Under the pieces are notes generated by a model. That model made no database searches. It was not told where the DNA came from and was given only the letters and a program-made list of their open reading frames with translations. From Polyangia bacterium (lineage in GTDB: Bacteria > Myxococcota_A > Polyangia > Polyangiales > JAUICN01): a stretch of 59,353 bases of DNA. Positions 17,852-41,236 of this stretch are shown in pieces; position 1 is the stretch's first letter, and the number at the start of each line of letters is the position of its first letter. The position numbers and the translations under genes are program-made. The stretch lies in assembly GCA_030427835.1 (NCBI GenBank), contig JAUICN010000015.1, positions 1-59,353 of the forward strand. The letters are read 5' to 3'.

Positions 17852-19159
17852 ATGAAGGTTCCCCACCTATTCAAGGCCGGCGTGGCCGCTACAATTTTCG
17901 GCACCGCATGCTTCACGCTCCCATCGTGCACGTCACCCCCTGGGGAGCAAAGCTCCGTCAAGGATCACGTCGCAGGGGACATGCGACCTGCCACGGAGGT
18001 GGAGCGAAGTGCACTGATCAACCTCGTGGACTGGCTTGCACAACGGGGCCTTGAGGAGCTCCCGACTGAGAACGTGACCGTCCCCGGACGAAACCTCACG
18101 AGCGCAGGCTTCCCACCCTGCAAATCCACACTGCAAGAACTGCTCACCCTGGGCCCCAAATGGTTTCGATCCCTCAACACCACGATTGTCATCACGGGCA
18201 GCGGCGCCACCGACGGGGGAACCATTGGAGTCGCACCGCAATCCGTTGCATTTTCGGCGGACTTTGTCCAAATGGCCCTCGTTGCACCCCATCATACCAT
18301 CGCGGCCCTAGCCCAGGAGTTCGCCCACACCGACGACCTCGGTACCGTTCATGCAGGCAAAATCGAGCACCCCCGTTGCCAACCCAACAACGCGGACTTC
18401 ACCACAGAGCTGCGGGGGCTAAAAGCGGAGTCTGCGTTTCTTAAGTACGCCACCAGGAAGGGTGACCTGGAACCCATCGGATCAAACAATTTGTTGTTGC
18501 ACGACTACAACCAATGGAAGGTGACAAACGCGGAAACCCTTTGGCCCCTTTCAGGTCAACTCCTGGGATCAAAACCCGCCACCTACTTTGAACAACAGCG
18601 ACTGCTAGAAAACCTCTACCGAAAACCATTGTATGTTCAACAGCTGCAAGCCTTCCTGAGCCGAAACCCACCCATCACGGATGCCTCCCGCGCAACGATT
18701 CTCAAACGACTCACAGGCGAAGCCGCAGCTCTGCTTGAGGAGCTCGCCCAGTACACAGAAACATTTGTGAACAACCCCAAGAAGAACCGTTTTGAAAACC
18801 TCGTGGAGACCCACATGGCGAACGTGTGGTCTCAAAAAATGATCATCTTTCAACAGATCCACAAAGAACTGCAACAGGTCACGGTACCGCCAAACGCCTC
18901 CCCCATCATGGTGGATTTCAAAACAGCCGTGGAAAAACTAGCCACCGCCTACGCAAATACCAGGGCCAACTCCGACCTGTGGTCACAGATGGAACATGCA
19001 CTGACCCACAGCACCTCGCTCCTGGACTTAATGAACGCAGGAGACTCGAGCGCTTCCTTAATAAAGTTCGCGGCGTGGTGTGGGACACACCAATCCACCG
19101 GTGACCTCGAACATACTGCGAAGGAAATCGAAGCGCTCTCAGCACTCATTGCCCCGTAG
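17852..19159 (+). CDS. Lipoprotein A of a duplicated 435-aa family, function unknown
   Basis: 435 aa with a signal peptide and lipobox LPSC followed by TSPPGEQ. It is clearly homologous to the 435-aa product at 21931-23238 and to the decayed copy at 23250-24044. Shared features include LVDWLAQRGL / LVQWLTHRGL, a CxSTxQxLL segment, an FAH-x-x-D motif (QEFAHTDD), ELRGLKAESAFLK, GDLEPIGSNNLLLH and a coiled, helical C-terminal half (YFEQQRLLENLY). The FAHTDD region hints at metal binding but no HExxH-type motif exists. The adjacent glycosyltransferase/DUF2142 pair starts 113 bases downstream on the same strand. Confidence 0.8.
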   Translation: MKVPHLFKAGVAATIFGTACFTLPSCTSPPGEQSSVKDHVAGDMRPATEVERSALINLVDWLAQRGLEELPTENVTVPGRNLTSAGFPPCKSTLQELLTLGPKWFRSLNTTIVITGSGATDGGTIGVAPQSVAFSADFVQMALVAPHHTIAALAQEFAHTDDLGTVHAGKIEHPRCQPNNADFTTELRGLKAESAFLKYATRKGDLEPIGSNNLLLHDYNQWKVTNAETLWPLSGQLLGSKPATYFEQQRLLENLYRKPLYVQQLQAFLSRNPPITDASRATILKRLTGEAAALLEELAQYTETFVNNPKKNRFENLVETHMANVWSQKMIIFQQIHKELQQVTVPPNASPIMVDFKTAVEKLATAYANTRANSDLWSQMEHALTHSTSLLDLMNAGDSSASLIKFAAWCGTHQSTGDLEHTAKEIEALSALIAP

Positions 19160-19272
19160 GCAACGCGCTTCATCCCCGTAGGGTAGCCCATGGCCCAAGC
19201 ACGTCGATCTGGCCGTTCCCCAGAAACCATACTAGGTTAGCGCCCTCGTCCGCACCCCCCGTCACCTTTACC

Positions 19273-20277
19273 ATGTTGAAATCGTCCAACGTTGCTGTGA
19301 TCATTCCAGCCTACAAAGCGGAAGCCCATATCGAAGGGGTTCTGCGCGGGATTCCATCCTGGGTACACCGAATCATCGTGGTGAACGATGCATCGCCGGA
19401 CGCCACGGGGGAGCGCGCACTGGAGTTCGCCTCCGGGAACCCCAAATGCACCGTGCTCACCCACGAAACCAACCAGGGCGTGGGCGGAGCCATGGTCACC
19501 GGTTTCAAAGCCGTGCTTGAGGATCCAAGCGTCAACGTGGTCATCAAAATGGATTCCGACGGGCAGATGAGCCCAGACAGGCTGAGTAAGTTCCTGGAAG
19601 TCCTACAGCAACAGGGGTGCGATTTCGTGAAAGCCAACCGCTTCATGCACCTGAAGGCCTTGCAGCAAATGCCCCTAATTCGACAAATCGGAAACACAGG
19701 GCTCGGCTTCCTCACAAAAATCGCCACGGGCTATTGGTCCATCTTCGATCCAACCAACGGGTTCTTCGGCATTCGCGCCACCACACTCAAGCGATTGGAT
19801 CTCGAGCAGCTCGCCTCACGCTACTACTTTGAAATCTCCCTGTTGGGGGAACTGGGAATGCAACGTGCCACCGTACGGGACCTGCCCACCCCAGCGGTCT
19901 ACAGCGACGAGGTTTCCAACCTCTCCGTCACACGCACCCTGTTTGATTTCCCACCACGCCTTTTTCGCACATGGCTGCGACGCATGGTCGTACGGGATCT
20001 ACTGTGGTCCTTTTCCGCCAAAACGCTCTTCCTCTTTTGCGGGGTCATCCTGGGCCTCGGTGGCACTATTTTCGGCGGCGTAAACTGGCTGCGCTACGGC
20101 CTCATGGATGTACCAGCCCCTACCGGCACCGTAGTCCTGGCAGCCCTGCTCGTCACCCTTGGTTTCCAGCTATGTTTGCAGTTCCTGGTTCTCGACATCC
20201 AGGATGAACCCAAACAACCTTTGTGGTCCAGACCCACCGACTCACTGTACCCACCCCCAAACGCCAACGTTTTATGA
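19273..20277 (+). CDS. GT2-family glycosyltransferase (dolichol-phosphate-mannose-synthase-like) with C-terminal membrane helices
   Basis: 334 aa. The GT-A domain (1-235) shows VAVIIPAYKAEAHI, VVNDASPDATGE, the gate motif NQGVGGAMVTGF and the metal-binding KMDSDGQMSP. Two membrane helices follow at about 250-310 (LFLFCGVILGLGGTIFGGV, VLAALLVTLGFQLCLQFLV). Such enzymes move a sugar from a nucleotide donor to polyprenyl phosphate at the inner face of the membrane. The stop overlaps the next start as ATGA, so it is coupled to the DUF2142 gene, which may use the lipid-linked sugar. Confidence 0.9.
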   Translation: MLKSSNVAVIIPAYKAEAHIEGVLRGIPSWVHRIIVVNDASPDATGERALEFASGNPKCTVLTHETNQGVGGAMVTGFKAVLEDPSVNVVIKMDSDGQMSPDRLSKFLEVLQQQGCDFVKANRFMHLKALQQMPLIRQIGNTGLGFLTKIATGYWSIFDPTNGFFGIRATTLKRLDLEQLASRYYFEISLLGELGMQRATVRDLPTPAVYSDEVSNLSVTRTLFDFPPRLFRTWLRRMVVRDLLWSFSAKTLFLFCGVILGLGGTIFGGVNWLRYGLMDVPAPTGTVVLAALLVTLGFQLCLQFLVLDIQDEPKQPLWSRPTDSLYPPPNANVL

Positions 20278-21749
20278 TCTCAAAACGCGCGTTCAACCCA
20301 GAGGAAACGGAAGACCTCACACAACCCAAGCATGCTCCTCTCCATGCCGCACATTGGGTTTGGCTCGTCACACTATTTTGGCTAGGCGTCGGCTACATCG
20401 TGGTCCTTCCACCCTTCCAATCCAACGACGAAGCCGGGCATTGGGAACGCACCATGTCCGTCTCCCAGGGGGACATCCTCTGCGACACCATCGTGACCTC
20501 CGCCGCCCCACTGGTAGAGGTTGCTGCCGGGTCCGTAAACAAGAAGCGGGTTCCTATCTACGACCGCGAACGCCTTCGAAAGGCCACACAGATTCGGGAA
20601 GATCCACAGGACGTGGTTCCCTTGCACACCACCGCCTGTCACTACTCCCCGTTGAGCTACATCGTTCCAGCGATTGCCACACGGGCGTCCCTGGCGGTGA
20701 ACTCCCGACTGCTACCGTCCTTGTATTGGGCACGCCTGGCCAGCTGGGTGACCATGGTTCTGGTGCTCATCCTAGCCCTCCACATGTTTCCCTGGGCACG
20801 CCTGTCGCTGTTGGCATTCTTCTCAATCCCAGAAGTCGTGCAACAAACCGCCGCGCTCAACAACGAGTTGCTGATCTTCACGCTGTGCCTTGCGCTTGTG
20901 AAAACCACCTTTGGCCCGGCGTCTGCAAGGCGAGTCCTGGCCATTCTTCTGTGGGTGGCACTACTGACCCTAACTAAAATTGTCTTTATTTTTTTTGCGG
21001 TGCTTGCAATACCGCACCTAATCACCCTCTACCGAAACCAATACCCACGGTTTCGGTTTGTTCTGCTTAGCCTGGCGACCCTTGCAATCCCCATCCTGCC
21101 CTGGAAGGGCTGGTACACCATTGTCGACGTGCACGATTACCTGTGGATTCCCCCCTGGGGCGTAGACCCAGACGCGCAAATCGAGTTTCTAAAGAGTCGT
21201 CCTTCACACGTACTGACACTCGCCAAAAACCAACTGCTGAATACCTTCAAGGATCATCATCTAATGGGCACCTGGAGGTCGATGTTCGGCGTCCTGGGTA
21301 CCACGGCTGTGGTACTCCCCGGTTGGACCTACGCTGCCATACTCACAAGCTTGGGCCTTGGAGCCGTTGGAGACCTTGCCGGAAAAACTGGTAAACCACG
21401 GTTCTGGCCCTACCAAAGCAACAAGGAGCTCGTTTTGGTTCTCGCGCTGATCGGGCTCGCCATCTTCGCTAGCCTGTCCGCCATCGCGTTCTCCATGTAC
21501 CTATTCTTCTCAGGCGTGGGCTCCGACGACATCCTGGGCGTTCAAGGCCGCTACTATCTCCCTCTGCTACTCCTGGCCATGATCATCGGCCTGGCCACAA
21601 TGCTTCGCCTTCGAGGGCAACACGGATCCGACGCCTCCCCCAACCGCCTCCCATTCAAACGACTGGCATGGACTCTCGCACCCATGGTCTGCAGCGTGGC
21701 CGCCCTGTGCTCCGCCGTCGCTGAAGTCGGCCGCCACTTTTGGTGGTAA
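20274..21749 (+). CDS. DUF2142-type polytopic membrane protein
   Basis: 491 aa from the ATG at 20274, which overlaps the previous stop by four bases. About ten membrane helices are visible. After the first helix comes PPFQSNDEAGHW, the DUF2142 hallmark (PPF-x-x-xDE-x-xH), placed like the catalytic acidic loop of GT-C glycosyltransferases. A soluble loop of about 80 aa precedes helix 2. By analogy it may transfer sugar from polyprenyl phosphate outside the membrane. The pairing with a GT2 enzyme supports this; the acceptor is unknown. Confidence 0.82.
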   Translation: MISKRAFNPEETEDLTQPKHAPLHAAHWVWLVTLFWLGVGYIVVLPPFQSNDEAGHWERTMSVSQGDILCDTIVTSAAPLVEVAAGSVNKKRVPIYDRERLRKATQIREDPQDVVPLHTTACHYSPLSYIVPAIATRASLAVNSRLLPSLYWARLASWVTMVLVLILALHMFPWARLSLLAFFSIPEVVQQTAALNNELLIFTLCLALVKTTFGPASARRVLAILLWVALLTLTKIVFIFFAVLAIPHLITLYRNQYPRFRFVLLSLATLAIPILPWKGWYTIVDVHDYLWIPPWGVDPDAQIEFLKSRPSHVLTLAKNQLLNTFKDHHLMGTWRSMFGVLGTTAVVLPGWTYAAILTSLGLGAVGDLAGKTGKPRFWPYQSNKELVLVLALIGLAIFASLSAIAFSMYLFFSGVGSDDILGVQGRYYLPLLLLAMIIGLATMLRLRGQHGSDASPNRLPFKRLAWTLAPMVCSVAALCSAVAEVGRHFWW

Positions 21750-21821
21750 CGCACCACTACAGCGCCCCGCGTGCTCCAGGCACCGTCCAACACCAGCGAA
21801 TCCATTGCGGCAGAAAAACAG

Positions 21822-21840
21822 ATTCTACCGCACAGATAAT
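21822..21840 (+). promoter_or_regulatory. Conserved 19-bp element upstream of lipoprotein B (copy 1)
   Basis: ATTCTACCGCACAGATAAT lies 90 bases before the ATG at 21931. A copy differing at one base is at 50609-50627 on the minus strand, also upstream of a lipoprotein gene and in the same orientation relative to it. A related stretch, TTGCCGCGCAGAAAATAG, follows at 21861-21878, and GATTC/GAATC arms flank the element. It could be a regulator site or a scar of a mobile element. Confidence 0.55.
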
Positions 21841-21930
21841 TTTGCGCGGAATCGGATTTTTTGCCGCGCAGAAAATAGGCAGAATATCCAACGGCACCGT
21901 TGGTACGATCCTTGTAAGAGCACCTCACCT

Positions 21931-23238
21931 ATGCGGTTTCTCCTCCTCTTCCCCACCCTGTTACTAGCGGCCACCTACTCGGCCTGCGCAATTCACACAC
22001 CAGACAATCACACGTCAGAAAACGGCCGTCAGCAAACCAAGGCAACAGAGCAAACGGCATCTGAGATCGTCGAACCCACAAAAGCAGAACAGGACGCCGT
22101 TCAACTACTGGTGCAGTGGCTCACCCACAGGGGTCTGGGGGCGTTGCGCGGCAGAGACATTCCTATTCCCGAACGCGACACGTCCAACCCTTCATGCATC
22201 TCCACCGTTCAGGGCCTGCTCAAACACGGCCCCACCTGGATCAAGACACCAGGGAACCTACTTCTAGGTCACAACAGCAACCGAACCATGCAGGTCCACA
22301 ACGGTCAGTTTGTGGTTGGAAAAACCTTCGTGAAAACCGCATTGGCCGCTCCCTACAATACCCTTGCAGAACTCATCGGCTGGTTCGCCCATTACAACGA
22401 TGCACATGGGCCCAAGGGCGGGTGTTTTGGGGAGGATTTCTGGGAGACCCCCCACAACCTACGCGCCCTCAAGGCATCCACCGCATTCCTGAAAGCCACA
22501 AGGCGTTTTGGAGAACTGGAACCCCTAGGCACCCACAACCTATTGCTCCACGAACAGCAACAAAGGCAAATCAAGACACTTCAAGGGATCTGGCACGTCA
22601 GCGCAATGGAAATCACAAACAACCTCTACCAAAACCGGGATTTACTTGAAACCCTAGAACAACAACTGTTCGCACCCTTCTACCTAAGAGATGTCATTGG
22701 TGCACTCGCGGTCCCAGGAAAAACCAACGCAACAAGCACCGAATACGTGAAGTGGATCACCCAACGCGCCAACCAGGTAAATGCTGAAACGCTTCAATGG
22801 CAGCAGTGGTCCAACGAACAAAAGGCTCTCAGTTACAAGGAACATCAACAGGCCTTCCTATTCCTACAAAACACCCTTGTGCTAAACGCACTCCGTGACG
22901 AGCTGGACAATGTCAAACTTCGAGTGAACTCTGTCACCCCATCCAACCAGCAACCCCATGAATCAACATGGGCAGCGCTCGCCGCAGAGCTTGCGAAACT
23001 CTGGTACACACAGGGCAACCTGGAAAAAGCGAACCGGCTCCAACTCATCAACTACCTCGTGGTCGCCGCCACAGCCAACGACCCCCTCATCGCCCGCGGC
23101 AACCCCAAACTCTCACTCCCACACTTCCACCAATGGCTCGGAAAACACCACAACCATTCCCCCACAGGCCAACAAAAAATCTCAAGCACCCTGCTCAACC
23201 TGAACACCCTCAAATCCCCTCCATCCAGCACCAACTAG
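21931..23238 (+). CDS. Lipoprotein B of a duplicated 435-aa family, function unknown
   Basis: 435 aa from the ATG at 21931, the same length as lipoprotein A. Signal MRFLLLFPTLLLAATYSAC with lipobox YSAC. The order of shared motifs is as in A: LVQWLTHRGLGAL, CISTVQGLLKHGP, a FAHYND region, NLRALKASTAFLK, GELEPLGTHNLLLH and the helical C-terminal half. Identity to A is only partial by eye, so the duplication is old. The start of a third copy begins within about 15 bases after its stop. Confidence 0.8.
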   Translation: MRFLLLFPTLLLAATYSACAIHTPDNHTSENGRQQTKATEQTASEIVEPTKAEQDAVQLLVQWLTHRGLGALRGRDIPIPERDTSNPSCISTVQGLLKHGPTWIKTPGNLLLGHNSNRTMQVHNGQFVVGKTFVKTALAAPYNTLAELIGWFAHYNDAHGPKGGCFGEDFWETPHNLRALKASTAFLKATRRFGELEPLGTHNLLLHEQQQRQIKTLQGIWHVSAMEITNNLYQNRDLLETLEQQLFAPFYLRDVIGALAVPGKTNATSTEYVKWITQRANQVNAETLQWQQWSNEQKALSYKEHQQAFLFLQNTLVLNALRDELDNVKLRVNSVTPSNQQPHESTWAALAAELAKLWYTQGNLEKANRLQLINYLVVAATANDPLIARGNPKLSLPHFHQWLGKHHNHSPTGQQKISSTLLNLNTLKSPPSSTN

Positions 23239-23249
23239 GTAGGTCCGGT

Positions 23250-24044
23250 GTGGGTTCCACAGTGCGGGCATCCCTCAAAACGTCCCCAATGGGCCAAATC
23301 GCGGAATGAAAACGACAACCTAGCCGTAAAACCACCCGTACATCATGGTGTTCCCACTTCTCACCAAGCACTCCTTCCCAATCCTGGTCGCTCTGATCTG
23401 AAGAGTTCACCCACTTTGACGACAAGGTAAACTTCGCCACCAACTCCGCGTCCCACGCGAGTTGCTCCAACTACGTCGCCAGCCAAGTGAAGGAACTGCG
23501 GGGTATGAAATCCAGAACCAAGTTCCTGGATCACACTTGGTTTGCCCTAGGCAACGAACCCCACGGTGGATCCAGCTCCCCATTCCAGAAGCTGATTCGC
23601 TGGACAGTCGACACCACAAAGACGCTCTGGGAAGTCCAGGACCGCTCCGCACAGTCCCTAGAGCTGGAACACTTTCAAACTCAACAAACCCTGGAAAACG
23701 TCTACAGCGTTCCCATCTGCCTACAGGCTCTCTCGGACGTCATGGACAACACCTTGTCGAATCTCGATACCGAAACACGGGACCTCGTATTCCAGCGAAC
23801 GAAATTGGACGTGACCGCCGCCATTGCTGAAACCTCAACCTGGGTAGCCCAGTTCAAAAACGATGCCAGCAAGACGGCGTTCATGGATCCAATCCAAGCC
23901 CAACGCGCCATCACATGGTCTGCCCGGGTGACTATTCTGTTCGCCCTAACAGCAAGGTACCGCGCAATCTTCAGTGCATTGCCAGCCACCGAAAGGGAGC
24001 AGGCCTACCAAAACCAAATCCTGGAGACCCTCAACCGAAACTAG
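23250..24044 (+). pseudogene. Decayed third copy of the 435-aa lipoprotein family
   Basis: Homology to lipoproteins A and B starts near 23256 (STVRASLK against STVQGLLK of B) without any signal peptide or start codon. It stops in that frame at 23307, resumes in another frame at about 23339-23398 (SFPILVALI) and, after one extra base at 23399, continues as EEFTHFDD to the TAG at 24042-24044, matching QEFAHTDD of A. A GTG at 23487 could start a 185-aa fragment (KELRGMKSRTKFLDH onward), but it would lack export signal and half the protein. Multiple indels and a lost N-terminus indicate a pseudogene. Confidence 0.75.
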
Positions 24045-24207
24045 AACCCATCTCATAAATACAAGCGAGTGTATTTGAAGCTCAGGGGAATGGGGATGCA
24101 AGGCGGTAAGGTGCAGGAATACCGCGAGTATTTCAAATCCTTGCCAACAAAGCAGCCGCGTTTGCATGGGCTTCAAGGCGCCGCGGGATTTATGAGATGG
24201 GTTCTAG
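24041..24207. mobile_element. MITE-like element (159 bp) with CTAG target duplication
   Basis: AACCCATCTCATAAAT at 24045-24060 is perfectly inverted at 24188-24203, and both ends are flanked by CTAG (24041-24044, 24204-24207). The interior (about 127 bp) has no coding capacity and contains related GCGAGTGTATTTGAA / GCGAGTATTTCAAA segments. A 4-bp YTAR-type duplication is typical of IS5-group transposases, so this may be a non-autonomous derivative of such an element; no transposase for it is in the window. The left CTAG holds the TAG stop of the decayed lipoprotein copy. Confidence 0.75.
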
Positions 24208-26897: not shown

Positions 26898-28574
26898 ATG
26901 AAAACGCTTCACAGCACCCTCACTCTCACCGGCACCCTGTCAGCGCTCATGCTGGGCACCGTTTCCATGCCGACATCCACCGCCCAGGCATTTTGTGGCT
27001 TCTACGTGAGCGGCGCAGAAGCTTCCCTCTACAACGACGCCACACTTGTGGTGCTCATGCGCGAGGGCCGTCGCACCGTGCTCTCCATGCAAAACAACTA
27101 CGAAGGGCCGCCCGATGACTTTGCATTGGTGATTCCAGTTCCTGAAGTGCTCCAGGAAGAAAACGTCAAAACCCTCCCCAAGGACATCTTTCGCCGGGTC
27201 GACAACCTCGCCGCACCACGGCTCGTAGAATACTGGGAACAGGATCCCTGTTCCCCACGCATTTACGAAGAATCGGTCATGATGCCTTTCATGACTGGAG
27301 CTCCCTCCCGGGCCGTGCAACGAAAAGGCGGCGACGACCTGGGCGTCACGGTGGAAGCCGAGTTCGAGGTGGCTGAGTACAACATCGTGGTGCTCAGTGC
27401 CCGTGACTCCGGCGGGCTCGACACCTGGTTGCGTCAGGAAAACTACAACATTCCCGAGGGCGCCGAACCCGTGCTTGCCCCCTACGTGGCCCAGGGCACC
27501 AAGTTCTTTGTGGCCAAGGTCGACAGCGAGCGCGTGACCTTCCGCAACGGTCGCGCAGTGCTTTCCCCCATACGCGTGCACTACGACTCCGACGACTTCT
27601 CCCTGCCCGTCCGCCTGGGCTTACTCAACAGCAAGGGCTCCCAAGATCTTTTGGTGCACGTACTGGCCCGTGGCCAGCGTTACCAAACCGCCAACTACGA
27701 CAACACCACCGTGCCCACCAACCTACGCGTGGACAACAGCGTGCGAACAGACTTTGGCGGCTACTACGAAGCGCTCTTCCAGGGCGTGGTCAAAAGCAAG
27801 CCCAACACCGTGGTAACCGAATATGCCTGGTCGGCAGAATCCTGCGACCCCTGCCCCACAAGCCCCCTCAACCAGGGTGAACTCATGACGCTCGGTGCCG
27901 ACGTGCTTCCTGGGTCCACATCCAACTCCGACAACCCAATCGGACGCCGGGGATTCCCAGGGGGCGGCTGGGTGCTCACCCGTATGCACTACCGCTACGA
28001 TGCCCAAAGCTTGGACGAGGACCTCATTTTCGAACCCGCACCGCCCATCATCGGCGGCCGCGGCACACCCAACCGGGAAGGAAAGATGGCCGAGCAAACC
28101 GCTGAGCCTTCTGGCATGAACAACTTCCAGGGTCGCTACATCATCACCCACCCCTGGGAAGGCGAAGTTACCTGCGAAAACCCCATCCGTGGTGAATGGG
28201 GCGGCCCACCCGGCTCCAACCAGCCCTTCTCAACGCCCATGGGCGCGGGCTCCGCACTCAACGAACCGGTCCAGAACGCCCGTTCCTTGGTCAAGGGAAA
28301 GACACTGCAACAGCTGACCGTAGACAACCTCAAGGCCTTCGGCATCGCACCAGACGAACCCAAACCCACCGAAACTAAGGGCGGGGTGGACAACAACCAT
28401 TCCACAGAATCCAAAGTCCCACCTGCCACCGCCAAGGGGCGCGGAGGCTGCGCCAGCTGCTCCGTGGGTAACTCGGGAAGTCAGGATTTCACCCTCCTTT
28501 GGTCCCTAGGGCTGTCTCTCCTATGGATACGAACGCGACGGATTCGAATCCGAGCAAAACGTCGACAGGGCTAA
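26898..28574 (+). CDS. DUF2330 protein with MYXO-CTERM-like sorting tail
   Basis: 558 aa with signal peptide (ending STAQAFCGFYV). The FCGFYVSGAEASLYNDATLVVLMREG and PPDDFALVIPVPEVL segments are typical DUF2330. The C-terminus has a Cys-rich motif (GGCASCSVG), a hydrophobic helix (LLWSLGLSLLWI) and an Arg-rich end (RTRRIRIRAKRR), the MYXO-CTERM arrangement that in Myxococcota directs processing by myxosortase-type enzymes and surface attachment. No myxosortase is in this window. Good ribosome site AAAGGAAAAG upstream. Confidence 0.85.
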   Translation: MKTLHSTLTLTGTLSALMLGTVSMPTSTAQAFCGFYVSGAEASLYNDATLVVLMREGRRTVLSMQNNYEGPPDDFALVIPVPEVLQEENVKTLPKDIFRRVDNLAAPRLVEYWEQDPCSPRIYEESVMMPFMTGAPSRAVQRKGGDDLGVTVEAEFEVAEYNIVVLSARDSGGLDTWLRQENYNIPEGAEPVLAPYVAQGTKFFVAKVDSERVTFRNGRAVLSPIRVHYDSDDFSLPVRLGLLNSKGSQDLLVHVLARGQRYQTANYDNTTVPTNLRVDNSVRTDFGGYYEALFQGVVKSKPNTVVTEYAWSAESCDPCPTSPLNQGELMTLGADVLPGSTSNSDNPIGRRGFPGGGWVLTRMHYRYDAQSLDEDLIFEPAPPIIGGRGTPNREGKMAEQTAEPSGMNNFQGRYIITHPWEGEVTCENPIRGEWGGPPGSNQPFSTPMGAGSALNEPVQNARSLVKGKTLQQLTVDNLKAFGIAPDEPKPTETKGGVDNNHSTESKVPPATAKGRGGCASCSVGNSGSQDFTLLWSLGLSLLWIRTRRIRIRAKRRQG

Positions 28575-28617: not shown

Positions 28618-30807
28618 ATGGGGTGTGGCGGCCCAAACCACTGTCGGCAGCAAACCCCACAGGTAGCAACGGCCAGGGTAGAAACGGCCAGGGTAGAAAC
28701 GGCCAGGGTAGAAACACAAAGAACCCAAACAGACACTGAAAACCCATACAAACACAGGGCAACACCGTCCCCAATCGCCCTGTTGGAACCATGGCTTAGC
28801 CCCGGCCCCTGGGCACCGGCCTTTACCCAAACCGGCACCGCACTAAAAAACGCAGATCGCCAACCGTGGGCCACAGAGTGGGCCGACACGGCAACCTGTG
28901 CACGTTGCCACAGCGACATCGTCCGGGAATGGAACACCAGCGCACACGCCTGGTCCTCCTTTTCCAACCCCTGGTACCACGCGGTGGTCGACCAGTTTAG
29001 GAACGAAACCAGTTTCGAACGAAGCCGGTTCTGCGCGGGCTGCCACGACCCCATGCTACTCATCTCTGGGGGCATCGATCAACCGGTACGCCCCACCGAT
29101 CCCCTGGCCCACGCAGGCATCACGTGCCTCACCTGCCACGGCTCCACAAAACACACCACCCATGGAAACGGCAGCTACACACTGGACCCATCTCCCATCA
29201 CCATTCCCAAACCCGGTGACCCCACATCGCTCGCAGCCCACCGAAAACGCCTGGGTCCAGACCACCTGCGCGAACCCACGTTCTGCGGAAGCTGCCATCG
29301 GAGTTTCCTTTCCACCCGTGTGGAACACGGTCACTTCCAATCCGGAATCGACGATCTTGGTGGCTGGCAGGCTTCCCAATTCGCCACAACACCCATCGAT
29401 GATCTACAACCGGCCGACCCGAAAACATGCACGTCCTGCCACATGCCAGAGGCCTCCTCCAACAATGAGAATCAAAGGCCTAGCCTCTACCGTTCCCATC
29501 GATTCCTGGGCGCCCACACCGGCCTGCACCGGTTTACCCAGACCGATGAACATTGGAACAACCTAGTCGAACAACTACGGAAAAACATCGCCGTGCACCT
29601 GTTGTGGTGGAACGAACAAAACCAACCCACCACAGCCCTAACCAAGAATGCCTCAGGCACATGGTACCTGGACGTGGTCATTTCCAACAACGGCGTCGGT
29701 CACCACTTTCCGGGGGGCACCCGAGATACCCAGGACACCCAACTGCAGGTCAAGCTGCTGGACGACCACGGGCACACACTCACCCGTTCCACCCACGGGC
29801 TCAACAGCCACAACCTCCGCTCTATCCAGCTTCAATCCGATGGCACGCCCCAATGGACACACGCGGTGCACACCTTTGCATCATCTGCACAGGACCACAC
29901 CATCCCCGCAGGGCACGCACGCATCGCACGTTACGCAGTAGACCTGAACTCACTGACAAAGCACCCCACCCAAGTCTCAGTACAGCTCCTGCACCGGCGG
30001 CACAACACTGCCCTGGAACAGTTCGCGTGCAGTTTCCAAAAACAGAAGCCCGCATTTCGAAACAATGCGCACATCCAAAAAGGGTTCGATGTCAACAGCT
30101 GCCAGCCGCTACCATCCACACCTCTGGTAGATCGCACCCACCGCGTAGCGCTACCCAACCCCAGTCTTCGACAACGTTTTCTCCATGCGCGCGCCCTGCT
30201 TGAAAGCACCACCGATCATTGGTCCCAGGCAGACACGCTGCTGAAGGGAGTGACCTGCAGCACACAGGATCTGGACTGCGCAAACCTCACCCTACTCCGG
30301 GCAAGGCTCTGGGCCCAACGGGGAAAACCAGAAGAAGCCGAAAGAGTACTAAACAGCCTTCCACAGATCTGGACCCATCACGCCTCAGTACGGGCCACCC
30401 GCGCCATGGCCTGGCAACGGGTGTGGAACTGGGAAAACTCTGCCTCCGCCTTGCAAACCGCGTCCCGACAATCCAACCACCCCACACTGCAAGAATCGCT
30501 CGGCCTTGCCCTATTCAACTCAAACCAGATGGAAGCCGCCGTCACCCATACCTGGACTGCCCTTGGAAGTACGCCCCACGCCCAACCCCTCTGGCGCATC
30601 CAAGCCCTCACCCACCAAAGGCAACAACCCAACAACCACACGCTCATCCGTCAACTCTGGACCGCCCACGCCCTCACCACCCCCAACCCCCAAGCCCACG
30701 GCATCCGAGACCACTGCCAAACCAAAATCCCTGGGTGCTTCAACCAGTCCCAACGCATCCCTGTGTACCCGATGCAACCCCTTCGAATGGAAAGCCCTCA
30801 CCACTGA
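28618..30807 (+). CDS. Five-heme cytochrome c with C-terminal helical-repeat region
   Basis: 729 aa from the ATG at 28618. Five CxxCH heme motifs occur within about 80-290: CARCH, CAGCH, CLTCH, CGSCH and CTSCH, resembling multiheme cytochrome c554-like proteins. The rest contains a beta-rich region (DVVISNNGVGHHFPGG) and a TPR-like C-terminus. A better start may be CTG at 28576, just after the DUF2330 stop and preceded by AGGG: it adds RIGHITAVSLALSMGC, which makes a lipoprotein signal that the ATG start lacks. Heme attachment requires export, so the upstream start is favoured but not proven. Likely co-transcribed with the DUF2330 gene. Confidence 0.85.
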   Translation: MGCGGPNHCRQQTPQVATARVETARVETARVETQRTQTDTENPYKHRATPSPIALLEPWLSPGPWAPAFTQTGTALKNADRQPWATEWADTATCARCHSDIVREWNTSAHAWSSFSNPWYHAVVDQFRNETSFERSRFCAGCHDPMLLISGGIDQPVRPTDPLAHAGITCLTCHGSTKHTTHGNGSYTLDPSPITIPKPGDPTSLAAHRKRLGPDHLREPTFCGSCHRSFLSTRVEHGHFQSGIDDLGGWQASQFATTPIDDLQPADPKTCTSCHMPEASSNNENQRPSLYRSHRFLGAHTGLHRFTQTDEHWNNLVEQLRKNIAVHLLWWNEQNQPTTALTKNASGTWYLDVVISNNGVGHHFPGGTRDTQDTQLQVKLLDDHGHTLTRSTHGLNSHNLRSIQLQSDGTPQWTHAVHTFASSAQDHTIPAGHARIARYAVDLNSLTKHPTQVSVQLLHRRHNTALEQFACSFQKQKPAFRNNAHIQKGFDVNSCQPLPSTPLVDRTHRVALPNPSLRQRFLHARALLESTTDHWSQADTLLKGVTCSTQDLDCANLTLLRARLWAQRGKPEEAERVLNSLPQIWTHHASVRATRAMAWQRVWNWENSASALQTASRQSNHPTLQESLGLALFNSNQMEAAVTHTWTALGSTPHAQPLWRIQALTHQRQQPNNHTLIRQLWTAHALTTPNPQAHGIRDHCQTKIPGCFNQSQRIPVYPMQPLRMESPHH
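28662..28717. repeat. 15-bp tandem repeat (three to four units) near the cytochrome N-terminus
   Basis: Unit GGTAGAAACGGCCAG repeated, with a diverged first unit (GGTAGCAACGGCCAG). It encodes ARVET in the stalk between the predicted lipid anchor and the heme domain. Confidence 0.9.
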
Positions 30808-38040: not shown

Positions 38041-39633
38041 TTGGCCACAAACGCACACATTTGGCACCCTCCCCATGTGCAAGGAATCACCCGACGCCAG
38101 GCCACCACCCTACTGGCAGGCCCATTGCTTCTGGCAGCGTTCCATTCGGTCACCGTACAGGCCCAAACGCCGATCACAGAAAACGACTTCAATATCGACC
38201 TCTACACGGGCCCCATTTTAGGGGGCGGTCGTGCCATGGGCATGGGCGGCGCCTACACAGCCATTGCCGAAGGTCTGGACGGCGCCCCCTGGAACCCTGC
38301 CGCCTACGGCTCACGCACCCTATGGCAGTTAAAGTGGTTCGAATGGGAGATTACGGGAAGCCTCATGTTCCCCGGAGGATTTGCTTCGAATGATTTTTAC
38401 AACTCGGGCACCACCGAAGGCTTCGCGGTGGACCGGTTTTTGTTTGTGACGCTCGGAGCACGCCTACAGTTTGGCGACGTGGGTGTGGGGTTCCTGCCCC
38501 AATGGCGAACGTTCACCCTGGATGACGGCACAGGTTCCCCGGTGGACGTCACCTTCAACCAGGGTCACGCCGGATTTGCCTACCAGCTGCACAACGGTCA
38601 AATCGTGATCGGCGGAGGATGGCGATTCGCCAAGGTAAGCCTACGCGACGCAAACAACCTCGAACTGGTTTCAACCTCAGGAAACTCGGCAGAACTGGGG
38701 GTGCTCGTTCGCTACGAAGATCAGCCCTGGCGTCTTGGCGTCGCCACCAAAACCCCAGTTGCCACGGACGCAGACAACGTATCTGGGCTCATGGTACAAG
38801 ACGGAGTTTCCTCCGCCGGTGGCCTCGTGCTCCCCAGAAGAGCCTATATGCCCTGGGAACTTCAGGTCGGCTTTGCCTATCAGTTTGGAGATCGCCCCCT
38901 AAACCAACGGTGGGTCGATCCCCAAAACCGAAATAAGTCCCTACGCCAATCCCAGACCATTCAGTGGCTCAGCCGTGAGCATCAGCAGTGGATGCGAGAA
39001 CAGTCAGCAGCTGAAAGCCCGTTGGGTTCAGCGAAAGCACTCGACGACCCACGCAGCGACCTACGCAGCGACCCACGCGGCAATCCACAAACAGACCAGG
39101 TACAACATCGTTTGCCTTCGGATCCCTACGCCTGGTCGGAAGCCCGACCCCAAAGCCCGAGTTTTTGGAAAGAAGAAAAGCGACGCCGCGAAGAAGAACT
39201 GAAACACATCGATGAGCAATACGAACGTGATGCACAACAGCGCCGGGAAGAGATGGAGTCCATCCCGCGATTCTACGTACTGCTCAGCACCGAAATCCTG
39301 CTCACCGGAAAAAGCTCAAACGCCATTGATCCTGAGGCTTTCCTCCTACAACGCCACCGCCGTTCCGGTACACGCAACTCCTTCGCCTACCGATTTGGGG
39401 CAGAAACAGAACCTCTCGCCCATCGACTCAAGATCCGCGCTGGCACCTACCTAGAACCTGCTCGCATCGAAGGCGCCACGTCCCGCGGCCATTTTACGGC
39501 TGGGACAGATCTACGCCTGTTCACCTGGGACGTCTTCGGACTGTTCCAGAAGTTTGATATTCGGGTGAGCGGTCTTCTGGACGCTGCGCCCCGATACTTC
39601 AACTGGGGAGTCAGCGTCGGCGTTTGGCACTAG
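38041..39633 (+). CDS. Outer-membrane beta-barrel protein (FadL/PorV-like N-terminus)
   Basis: 530 aa from a TTG at 38041 with AAGGA about 10 bases upstream; GTG at 38077 is an alternative. Signal peptide ends near SVTVQAQT. The segment GGRAMGMGGAYTAIAEGLDGAPWNPAA matches the hatch motif of FadL/PorV-type barrels. Residues 300-410 form a charged, coiled-coil-like insertion (EEKRRREEELKHIDEQYERD) before the last strands; the protein ends in VSVGVWH. Possibly a hydrophobic-substrate transporter or a type IX-like shuttle homologue. Overlaps the convergent flippase gene by 23 bases. Confidence 0.78.
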   Translation: MATNAHIWHPPHVQGITRRQATTLLAGPLLLAAFHSVTVQAQTPITENDFNIDLYTGPILGGGRAMGMGGAYTAIAEGLDGAPWNPAAYGSRTLWQLKWFEWEITGSLMFPGGFASNDFYNSGTTEGFAVDRFLFVTLGARLQFGDVGVGFLPQWRTFTLDDGTGSPVDVTFNQGHAGFAYQLHNGQIVIGGGWRFAKVSLRDANNLELVSTSGNSAELGVLVRYEDQPWRLGVATKTPVATDADNVSGLMVQDGVSSAGGLVLPRRAYMPWELQVGFAYQFGDRPLNQRWVDPQNRNKSLRQSQTIQWLSREHQQWMREQSAAESPLGSAKALDDPRSDLRSDPRGNPQTDQVQHRLPSDPYAWSEARPQSPSFWKEEKRRREEELKHIDEQYERDAQQRREEMESIPRFYVLLSTEILLTGKSSNAIDPEAFLLQRHRRSGTRNSFAYRFGAETEPLAHRLKIRAGTYLEPARIEGATSRGHFTAGTDLRLFTWDVFGLFQKFDIRVSGLLDAAPRYFNWGVSVGVWH

Positions 39634-41236
39634 GTTCGTCTTCTCCCAGGGAAACATCCCCACGTTTTAACAACATCGACAGTGCACCCCGGGTCCTTGG
39701 CATCCAAACAAGAACGGCGATGCCGTAAAACACCACGCCCACGCTCACCTTCGCTATGAGCACCCACACCCAGTGGATCCCCTGCCCGATGAGCTGAATC
39801 CCAAGCCACCACACAACCAAGCCCATGGCACCCGCGTTCATCCAAATCGGCACCATGGCACCTAGAGTTTGCCGAACTGAAACCTCGGCGGCTCGATGGG
39901 ACATCCACACCGTGGGAAAAAAGATAAGCACATTGGCCACAGCGTAGGCCTGGGCCACCCCCAACCCACCACCGGGCAGGACCCACACACCATTCTGCGA
40001 TTCCAGCAATGGCAATGGCAATGGCAATGGCAATGGCAACGTGAAGCCGTGCACACCCACCCAAAACGCAAGGGCAAACACCACCGTTTGGGTCAACCCC
40101 ACCACAAACATCGGCCGGCTCTGCCCCTTGGCCAAAAACAGCCACTGAAACGTATTGGAGGTGATTTGCAACACCGACGCCAGGGACAACCACTGAAGAA
40201 TGCCCGCACTCACCCCCCACTTTGCGCCGTACACCAACCGCACCACTTCAGGTGCCACCGCACCAAGGCCAATCGCCACGGGCACCCCCACGGCGCCCAT
40301 CTGACGCGTCACCCGCCCATACATCGCGCGAAACGCAGCCATATCTGACTGCAGCGAAGAAAGGGCAGGCCAAAACACATTGCCCATGCCCTGCACAAAC
40401 AGCGTGGCCGGTAGTGTCATTAAAAAATAGGCCCGGTTGTAGAACCCCAACTCACCTGAACCCCACACGCGGCCAATCAAAATGTTGTCCAGGTTCCGTG
40501 ACAGGTAAAACATCAAGGAGGTAAGCGTAATACCCGCCCCAAACCGAAGAAACATCACCGTCCCCTGGCCTGGCGTAAACCGGGCAGGCCGGTACTTCGA
40601 GGCCATCCACATTCCCACCATGCGCACGCCCTGGGCCACCACCACATGGACAACCAACGCCCAATACTCCGCGCCCCAAAGGCCGGCGACCAGGGCAGAT
40701 ACCACCGCCACCAGTTGTGCCGAAAGCTCCACCAGGGACACCGCGCGGGTGCGTAGCTGCCGGGTAAGGATCGCCGCCGGTTGAAGCGCCAGCCCATCAA
40801 ACACAAACGTCACCCCAAGCAACGCAGAAACCGCCACCAACTCGGGCTGGCGGTAGAACCAGGCAAGGGCCGGCCCCATCATCACACACACACACCAGAG
40901 CAGAACTCCCAGGCCCGCGCTGACCCAAAACAGGTTATCTACCTGGGCCTTCTTGAGAGAAGCGCGCTGAATCGCCGCCGCGCCCAAACCAAAATTGCCC
41001 ACCGTCTGCAACAACGCCGTAAGCGTTGTCGCCTGGGCCACCATGCCGTAGTCGTGCTCCGAAAGCAGCCGGGCCAACACCATGCTCGTACCCAGGCCCA
41101 GCACCCGCATCAACACCACCTGCACCAGGGCCCAACGCACCCCGCCGCGCACAAGCCCATCCAACCGGTCCGTACGGGCTGCAGCCACCTCACCGGGCAT
41201 CACCGAAGGGCTCTTAGAATCGTTTTCAGATTGCAT
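39611..41236 (-). CDS. Wzx-like polysaccharide flippase (MOP superfamily)
   Basis: 541 aa with 12-14 membrane helices. The N-terminus (GVRWALVQVVLMRVLGLGTSMVLARLL followed by YGMVAQATTL) and NLDNILIGRVWG and LGFYNRAYFL are typical of Wzx/polysaccharide-export proteins (MatE-type). It should flip lipid-linked oligosaccharide across the inner membrane. One loop/helix start contains LPLPLPLPLPL, encoded by a hexanucleotide repeat. No other O-antigen or capsule genes are adjacent. Confidence 0.9.
   Translation of the reverse strand: MQSENDSKSPSVMPGEVAAARTDRLDGLVRGGVRWALVQVVLMRVLGLGTSMVLARLLSEHDYGMVAQATTLTALLQTVGNFGLGAAAIQRASLKKAQVDNLFWVSAGLGVLLWCVCVMMGPALAWFYRQPELVAVSALLGVTFVFDGLALQPAAILTRQLRTRAVSLVELSAQLVAVVSALVAGLWGAEYWALVVHVVVAQGVRMVGMWMASKYRPARFTPGQGTVMFLRFGAGITLTSLMFYLSRNLDNILIGRVWGSGELGFYNRAYFLMTLPATLFVQGMGNVFWPALSSLQSDMAAFRAMYGRVTRQMGAVGVPVAIGLGAVAPEVVRLVYGAKWGVSAGILQWLSLASVLQITSNTFQWLFLAKGQSRPMFVVGLTQTVVFALAFWVGVHGFTLPLPLPLPLPLLESQNGVWVLPGGGLGVAQAYAVANVLIFFPTVWMSHRAAEVSVRQTLGAMVPIWMNAGAMGLVVWWLGIQLIGQGIHWVWVLIAKVSVGVVFYGIAVLVWMPRTRGALSMLLKRGDVSLGEDEPSAKRRR
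40007..40040. repeat. CAATGG hexanucleotide repeat (five units plus a partial) in the flippase gene
   Basis: Five perfect CAATGG units from 40007 to 40036, then CAAC. On the minus strand they read Leu-Pro dipeptides. Six-base steps keep the frame, so slippage would only change the length of the Leu-Pro stretch. Confidence 0.95.

Follow-up and report, generated by a model that had tools for sequence, protein, structure and literature searches.

Glycosyltransferase pairs of the GT-A/GT-C kind, together with a flippase, make up multi-component transmembrane glycosylation systems (PMC8035078, PMC11127046). In GtrA-GtrB-Gtr, CsbB-GtcA-YfhO and CsdAB, a GT2 synthase with a C-terminal pair of transmembrane segments stands beside a multi-spanning GT-C-type protein, as it does in the locus described here, and Wzx-type flippases have been proposed for such systems instead of GtrA. 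DUF2142 proteins are found in the wall-polysaccharide loci of streptococci and lactococci, rgp and cwps (PMC9746298, PMC12599335).

The locus lies in a stretch of 59,353 nucleotides (the window) from a source genome of 3.32 Mb that is 98% complete. It consists of a GT2 gene and a DUF2142 gene standing between two lipoprotein-like genes, A and B, with a decayed third copy, remnant C, beyond B (Table 1). The first-pass annotation had suggested that these genes form a new envelope system, a proposal in place of which we put two separable and testable statements, one about a glycosylation pair and the other about an orphan lipoprotein family. With slightly better than even confidence, we favor the explanation that two unrelated things adjoin here, namely a glycosylation module and a lineage-restricted, probably zincin-derived lipoprotein family, whose placement is most likely due to chance.

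Table 1. Features of the locus and related genes of the source genome. Positions refer to the window unless a locus on another contig is named.
Feature	Position	Strand	Remarks
Lipoprotein-like paralog A	17852..19159	+	435 aa; putative degenerate zincin motif QEFAH (Q155-H159) with E186
GT2 polyprenyl-phosphate glycosyltransferase, GtrB/DPMS-like	19273..20277	+	PF00535, 2.3e-25
DUF2142 multi-spanning membrane protein, predicted GT-C transferase	20274..21749	+	PF09913, 5.7e-32, 111 bits
Lipoprotein paralog B	21931..23238	+	435 aa; putative zincin motif lost: GWFAH, N replaces downstream Glu
Decayed third copy (remnant C)	23397..24044	+	Corresponds to A residues 154-333; EEFTH; N-terminus gone
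MITE-like element, 167 bp	24041..24207	.	Perfect 20-nt terminal inverted repeats CTAGAACCCATCTCATAAAT; abuts remnant C
Wzx-type polysaccharide flippase	39611..41236	-	PF13440, 5.8e-72; ~18 kb from the pair, not adjacent
C12 copy	L006:6436-7809	-	457 aa, intact family member
C7 copy	L007:7678-9132		484 aa, intact family member

The GT2/DUF2142 pair

The annotated coupling of a membrane-tethered GT2 transferase to a DUF2142 protein is borne out, as both proteins match their Pfam families above the cut-off, the genes overlap by ATGA, and the GT2 protein has two C-terminal transmembrane segments (243-261 and 280-298). It matches the dolichol-P-mannose synthase of PDB entry 5mlz (2e-17), the PpgS and AglJ models, and a GtrB-like phage family of PHROG (6e-17). 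Together with PF09913, these matches agree with the annotated assignment of the pair to the GT2/GT-C type that handles polyprenyl-linked sugars. The DUF2142 protein has at least seven hydrophobic segments. The acidic motif that had been noted in its first loop, PPFQSNDEAGHW, is indeed present and has equivalents in DUF2142 relatives (TPPFQAPDEQTHF, TPPLQAPDEGRHL), with a conserved PPFQxxDExxH loop.

The most fitting reading of the pair is a standard module for extracytoplasmic glycosylation, made up of a polyprenyl-phosphate-sugar synthase and a predicted GT-C transferase. Judging from the protein families and gene order, the GT2 protein would work on the inner side of the membrane, where it would load a sugar onto polyprenyl phosphate; a flippase would then turn the polyprenyl-linked sugar over for use outside by the DUF2142 GT-C protein. 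Because GtrA was not found in the source genome, the Wzx-type protein of the window is suggested as the flippase that could perhaps serve the pair. The module would be a standard polyprenyl-sugar one that apparently does without GtrA.

The DUF2142 gene of the pair is the only one in its genome, and a BLAST search of 176 further genomes from the order gave no homolog of it. DUF2142 is patchy across the phylum, where 19 of 377 genomes have a match above the cut-off. Three genomes of the phylum sample (G321, G503 and G581), all from one genus of another family, carry a GT2 and a DUF2142 gene as neighbors, and profile searches detected no relative of the lipoproteins in any of the three.

The lipoprotein family

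The arrangement of homologous lipoproteins and a coupled glycosyltransferase pair is real and far beyond chance. A and B, annotated as paralogs, align over nearly their whole length (119 bits, E = 5e-34, 27% identity over 418 columns), and the decayed third copy is likewise confirmed by its match to A (71.6 bits, E = 4e-19); the same remnant does not match B (E = 0.13). Remnant C is without about 150 N-terminal residues, the signal peptide among them, and carries an in-frame stop where homology begins, while its 3' end is formed by the 167-bp repeat element, whose CTAG gives the stop. At least 10 copies of this element, 99-100% identical, are present in the genome, 6 of them cut by contig ends, and the element looks like a recently active MITE. 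Elsewhere in the window, a DUF2330 protein (26898-28574) adjoins a cytochrome c554-like protein with a TPR-like C-terminal part (28618-30807).

Of the two annotated lipoproteins, B is called by a strict lipobox scan. A is not called, and since it has only the atypical sites GTAC and LPSC, its lipidation is less certain than was first stated. The sites in the C12 and C7 copies are also only atypical, as LPSC, ATAC and GAGC illustrate for the three proteins. Over the whole window, 7 of 41 frames pass the strict scan, with many unnamed putative lipoproteins.

Two further intact members are carried by the source genome on contigs C12 and C7. The neighbors of the C12 copy are priA, an flhB-like gene (both named from translations) and a gene for a DnaJ/receiver protein; those of the C7 copy are a SprT-like protein and other putative lipoproteins. 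The SprT-like protein (HEMLH, L007:9152-9697) lies directly 3' of this paralog. No GT2 or DUF2142 gene was found near either copy, that is, near two of the four intact members. The tree of all five members is close to a star with no supported groups, A and B included, which indicates that these two are not a recent tandem duplication around the transferases and that all members are anciently diverged.

Outside the source genome, BLAST with A and profiles of all five members found no relatives in sets of 55 and of 182 genomes from the same order, or among sampled genomes of the class (317) and the phylum (377). These sets overlap and cover families other than that of the source genome; the lipoproteins may therefore still be common in close relatives. 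The C7 copy as query in a contig scan gave no match, viral and plasmid searches with the lipoproteins were empty, and no matching family was found among Pfam, NCBIfam, PHROG or PDB sequences. The weak profile matches that were examined (E 0.005-0.05), in genomes of one other family, proved to be radical SAM proteins and were set aside as chance; the remaining weak matches in other genomes are short, with E near 0.006-0.05, and were likewise rejected. Most likely, the lipoproteins form an orphan family of their own that is restricted to this lineage.

A possible zincin motif

The best conserved block of the family reads LVHEFAHGDD...SELRAEKARAAF in the C7 copy, with HEFAH at H177-H181. This is the sole HExxH of the protein, and a HExxH occurs anywhere in 3.7% of shuffles of its sequence. 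H181, D184, R209 and F217 (C7 numbering) are invariant in all five members. The first His of the motif is replaced by Q in A, by G in B and by E in both the C12 copy and remnant C. Glu178 and Glu207, the latter in ELR, go together: C7, A and C retain the two residues, and B and C12 have lost them. The sequence of HExxH with a downstream Glu is thus complete in the C7 copy only and not in A, B, C or C12. A metzincin motif was rejected, because in the C7 copy the next His stands at the wrong distance, and this distance varies.

When aligned, the family profile and the HEFAHxxD site of M90/MtfA proteins from genomes of the same order are in register, and the alignment score of 24.5 exceeds those of all 150 column shuffles (maximum 22.3), while the hhalign probability is only 2%. 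No member matches Pfam M90 or any other Pfam peptidase, even with the core alone, no M90 protein was found in the source genome, and the family has no match in the PDB. AlphaFold gave no usable model, whether A was folded alone or together with B and C: the pLDDT is 35 in both cases, and the models are mostly helical.

From the HEFAH of the C7 copy, the joint pattern of the two Glu residues and the in-register M90 alignment, we propose with moderate confidence that the family consists of degenerate zincin lipoproteins, probably derived from a zinc metallopeptidase; membership in M90 is not claimed. Statistically this reading is weak, given the hhalign value, the lack of Pfam and PDB matches, and the pLDDT of A. 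The C7 copy may be an active peptidase, whereas A and B would have retained the fold and serve, without activity, as binding proteins in the envelope. The orphan lipoprotein family is undescribed, and what is new is that one copy has a metallopeptidase motif that the others have lost; this would be a small case of enzyme-to-pseudoenzyme expansion in a bacterial envelope.

Joint system or chance neighborhood

The first-pass annotation envisaged a system in which the glycan of the GT2/DUF2142 pair has A and B as its substrates, receptors or quality-control partners. Such a system is not supported, since each component is also found on its own: family members at other loci of this genome that lack the pair, and GT2/DUF2142 pairs in genomes where no lipoprotein relative was detected. 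We consider it very improbable, even though A-GT2-DUF2142-B lie in this order on one strand, with gaps of 113 nt after A and 181 nt before B, and additional acceptor-recognition proteins have been suggested for such systems (PMC8035078). The annotation had named beforehand two findings that would speak against it, homologs of A or B occurring widely without the pair and the pair in an unrelated conserved locus. Cases of both kinds were found, in small numbers: the former are two of the four intact members, both in the same genome whose sole DUF2142 gene is at the present locus, and the latter are G321, G503 and G581. Relatives of A were seen in no other searched genome, so there is no conserved neighborhood to back a link to the pair, and a comparison of the lipoprotein and DUF2142 profiles gave nothing. 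Putative lipoproteins are, moreover, common in the window by a scan that even misses A. A strong imperfect hairpin (GCGGCAGAAAA...UUUUUUGCCGC, 21805-21870, z -2.7) precedes B and is compatible with separate transcription units, although a single operon would also fit genes that follow one another on one strand at short distances; promoter and terminator scans returned numbers as expected by chance. Alternatively, A and B might be old genes between which the pair was inserted after being acquired as one piece. This would fit both the failure of BLAST to find its DUF2142 protein elsewhere in the order and the patchiness of DUF2142 in the phylum. The base composition of the pair is not clearly different from that of its neighbors, however, and no insertion borders were seen, and we hold such an insertion to be unlikely while still a real contender.

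As for the lipoproteins themselves, it is nearly but not quite an even prospect that they are unrelated to zincins, with the HEFAH of the C7 copy a coincidence in a mostly helical orphan fold. The total lack of database matches, the low-confidence helical models and an hhalign probability of only 2% all fit such a fold, but the motif sits on the invariant H181 and D184, Glu178 and Glu207 are retained or lost jointly across the five members, and the M90 match lies above every shuffle. A stronger version of the zincin reading, a lineage-specific set of envelope lipoproteins in which one active zinc peptidase (C7) gave rise to inactive paralogs (A, B and C12) serving as binding proteins or regulators, seems to us quite doubtful. 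Under the explanation that we prefer, of two unrelated neighbors, at least five exported and probably lipid-anchored paralogs (A, B, remnant C and the C12 and C7 copies) would go back to an ancestral zinc metallopeptidase. Of these, the C7 copy retains HEFAH together with a Glu that is a candidate third ligand; in A and C the first His is gone but both Glu residues remain, and in B and C12 His and Glu are gone alike. The position of A and B around the pair would most likely be a chance of gene neighborhood.

Comparison with known systems

The likeness of the lipoproteins to M90 (MtfA) consists of the HEFAHxxD site and of the strand-helix segment before it, which is in register with the lipoprotein profile. 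The candidate third Glu lies about 25-30 residues past the motif here and about 60 in M90, and unlike M90 the lipoprotein family is exported, is mostly without the ligands and is not matched by the Pfam M90 model. Compared with multi-component glycosylation systems, the present pair has no GtrA in its genome and no adjacent flippase, and it has a DUF2142 protein in place of YfhO or Gtr and no adjoining polysaccharide cluster. The DUF2142 protein is only about 22-26% identical to the relatives aligned and, unlike the lactococcal and streptococcal proteins, stands outside a recognizable polysaccharide locus. It nevertheless belongs to the same Pfam family as the WpsI/WpsJ-like and YcaA-like proteins, which are also found with GT2 genes, and its acidic first-loop motif is common to the DUF2142 relatives with which it was aligned.
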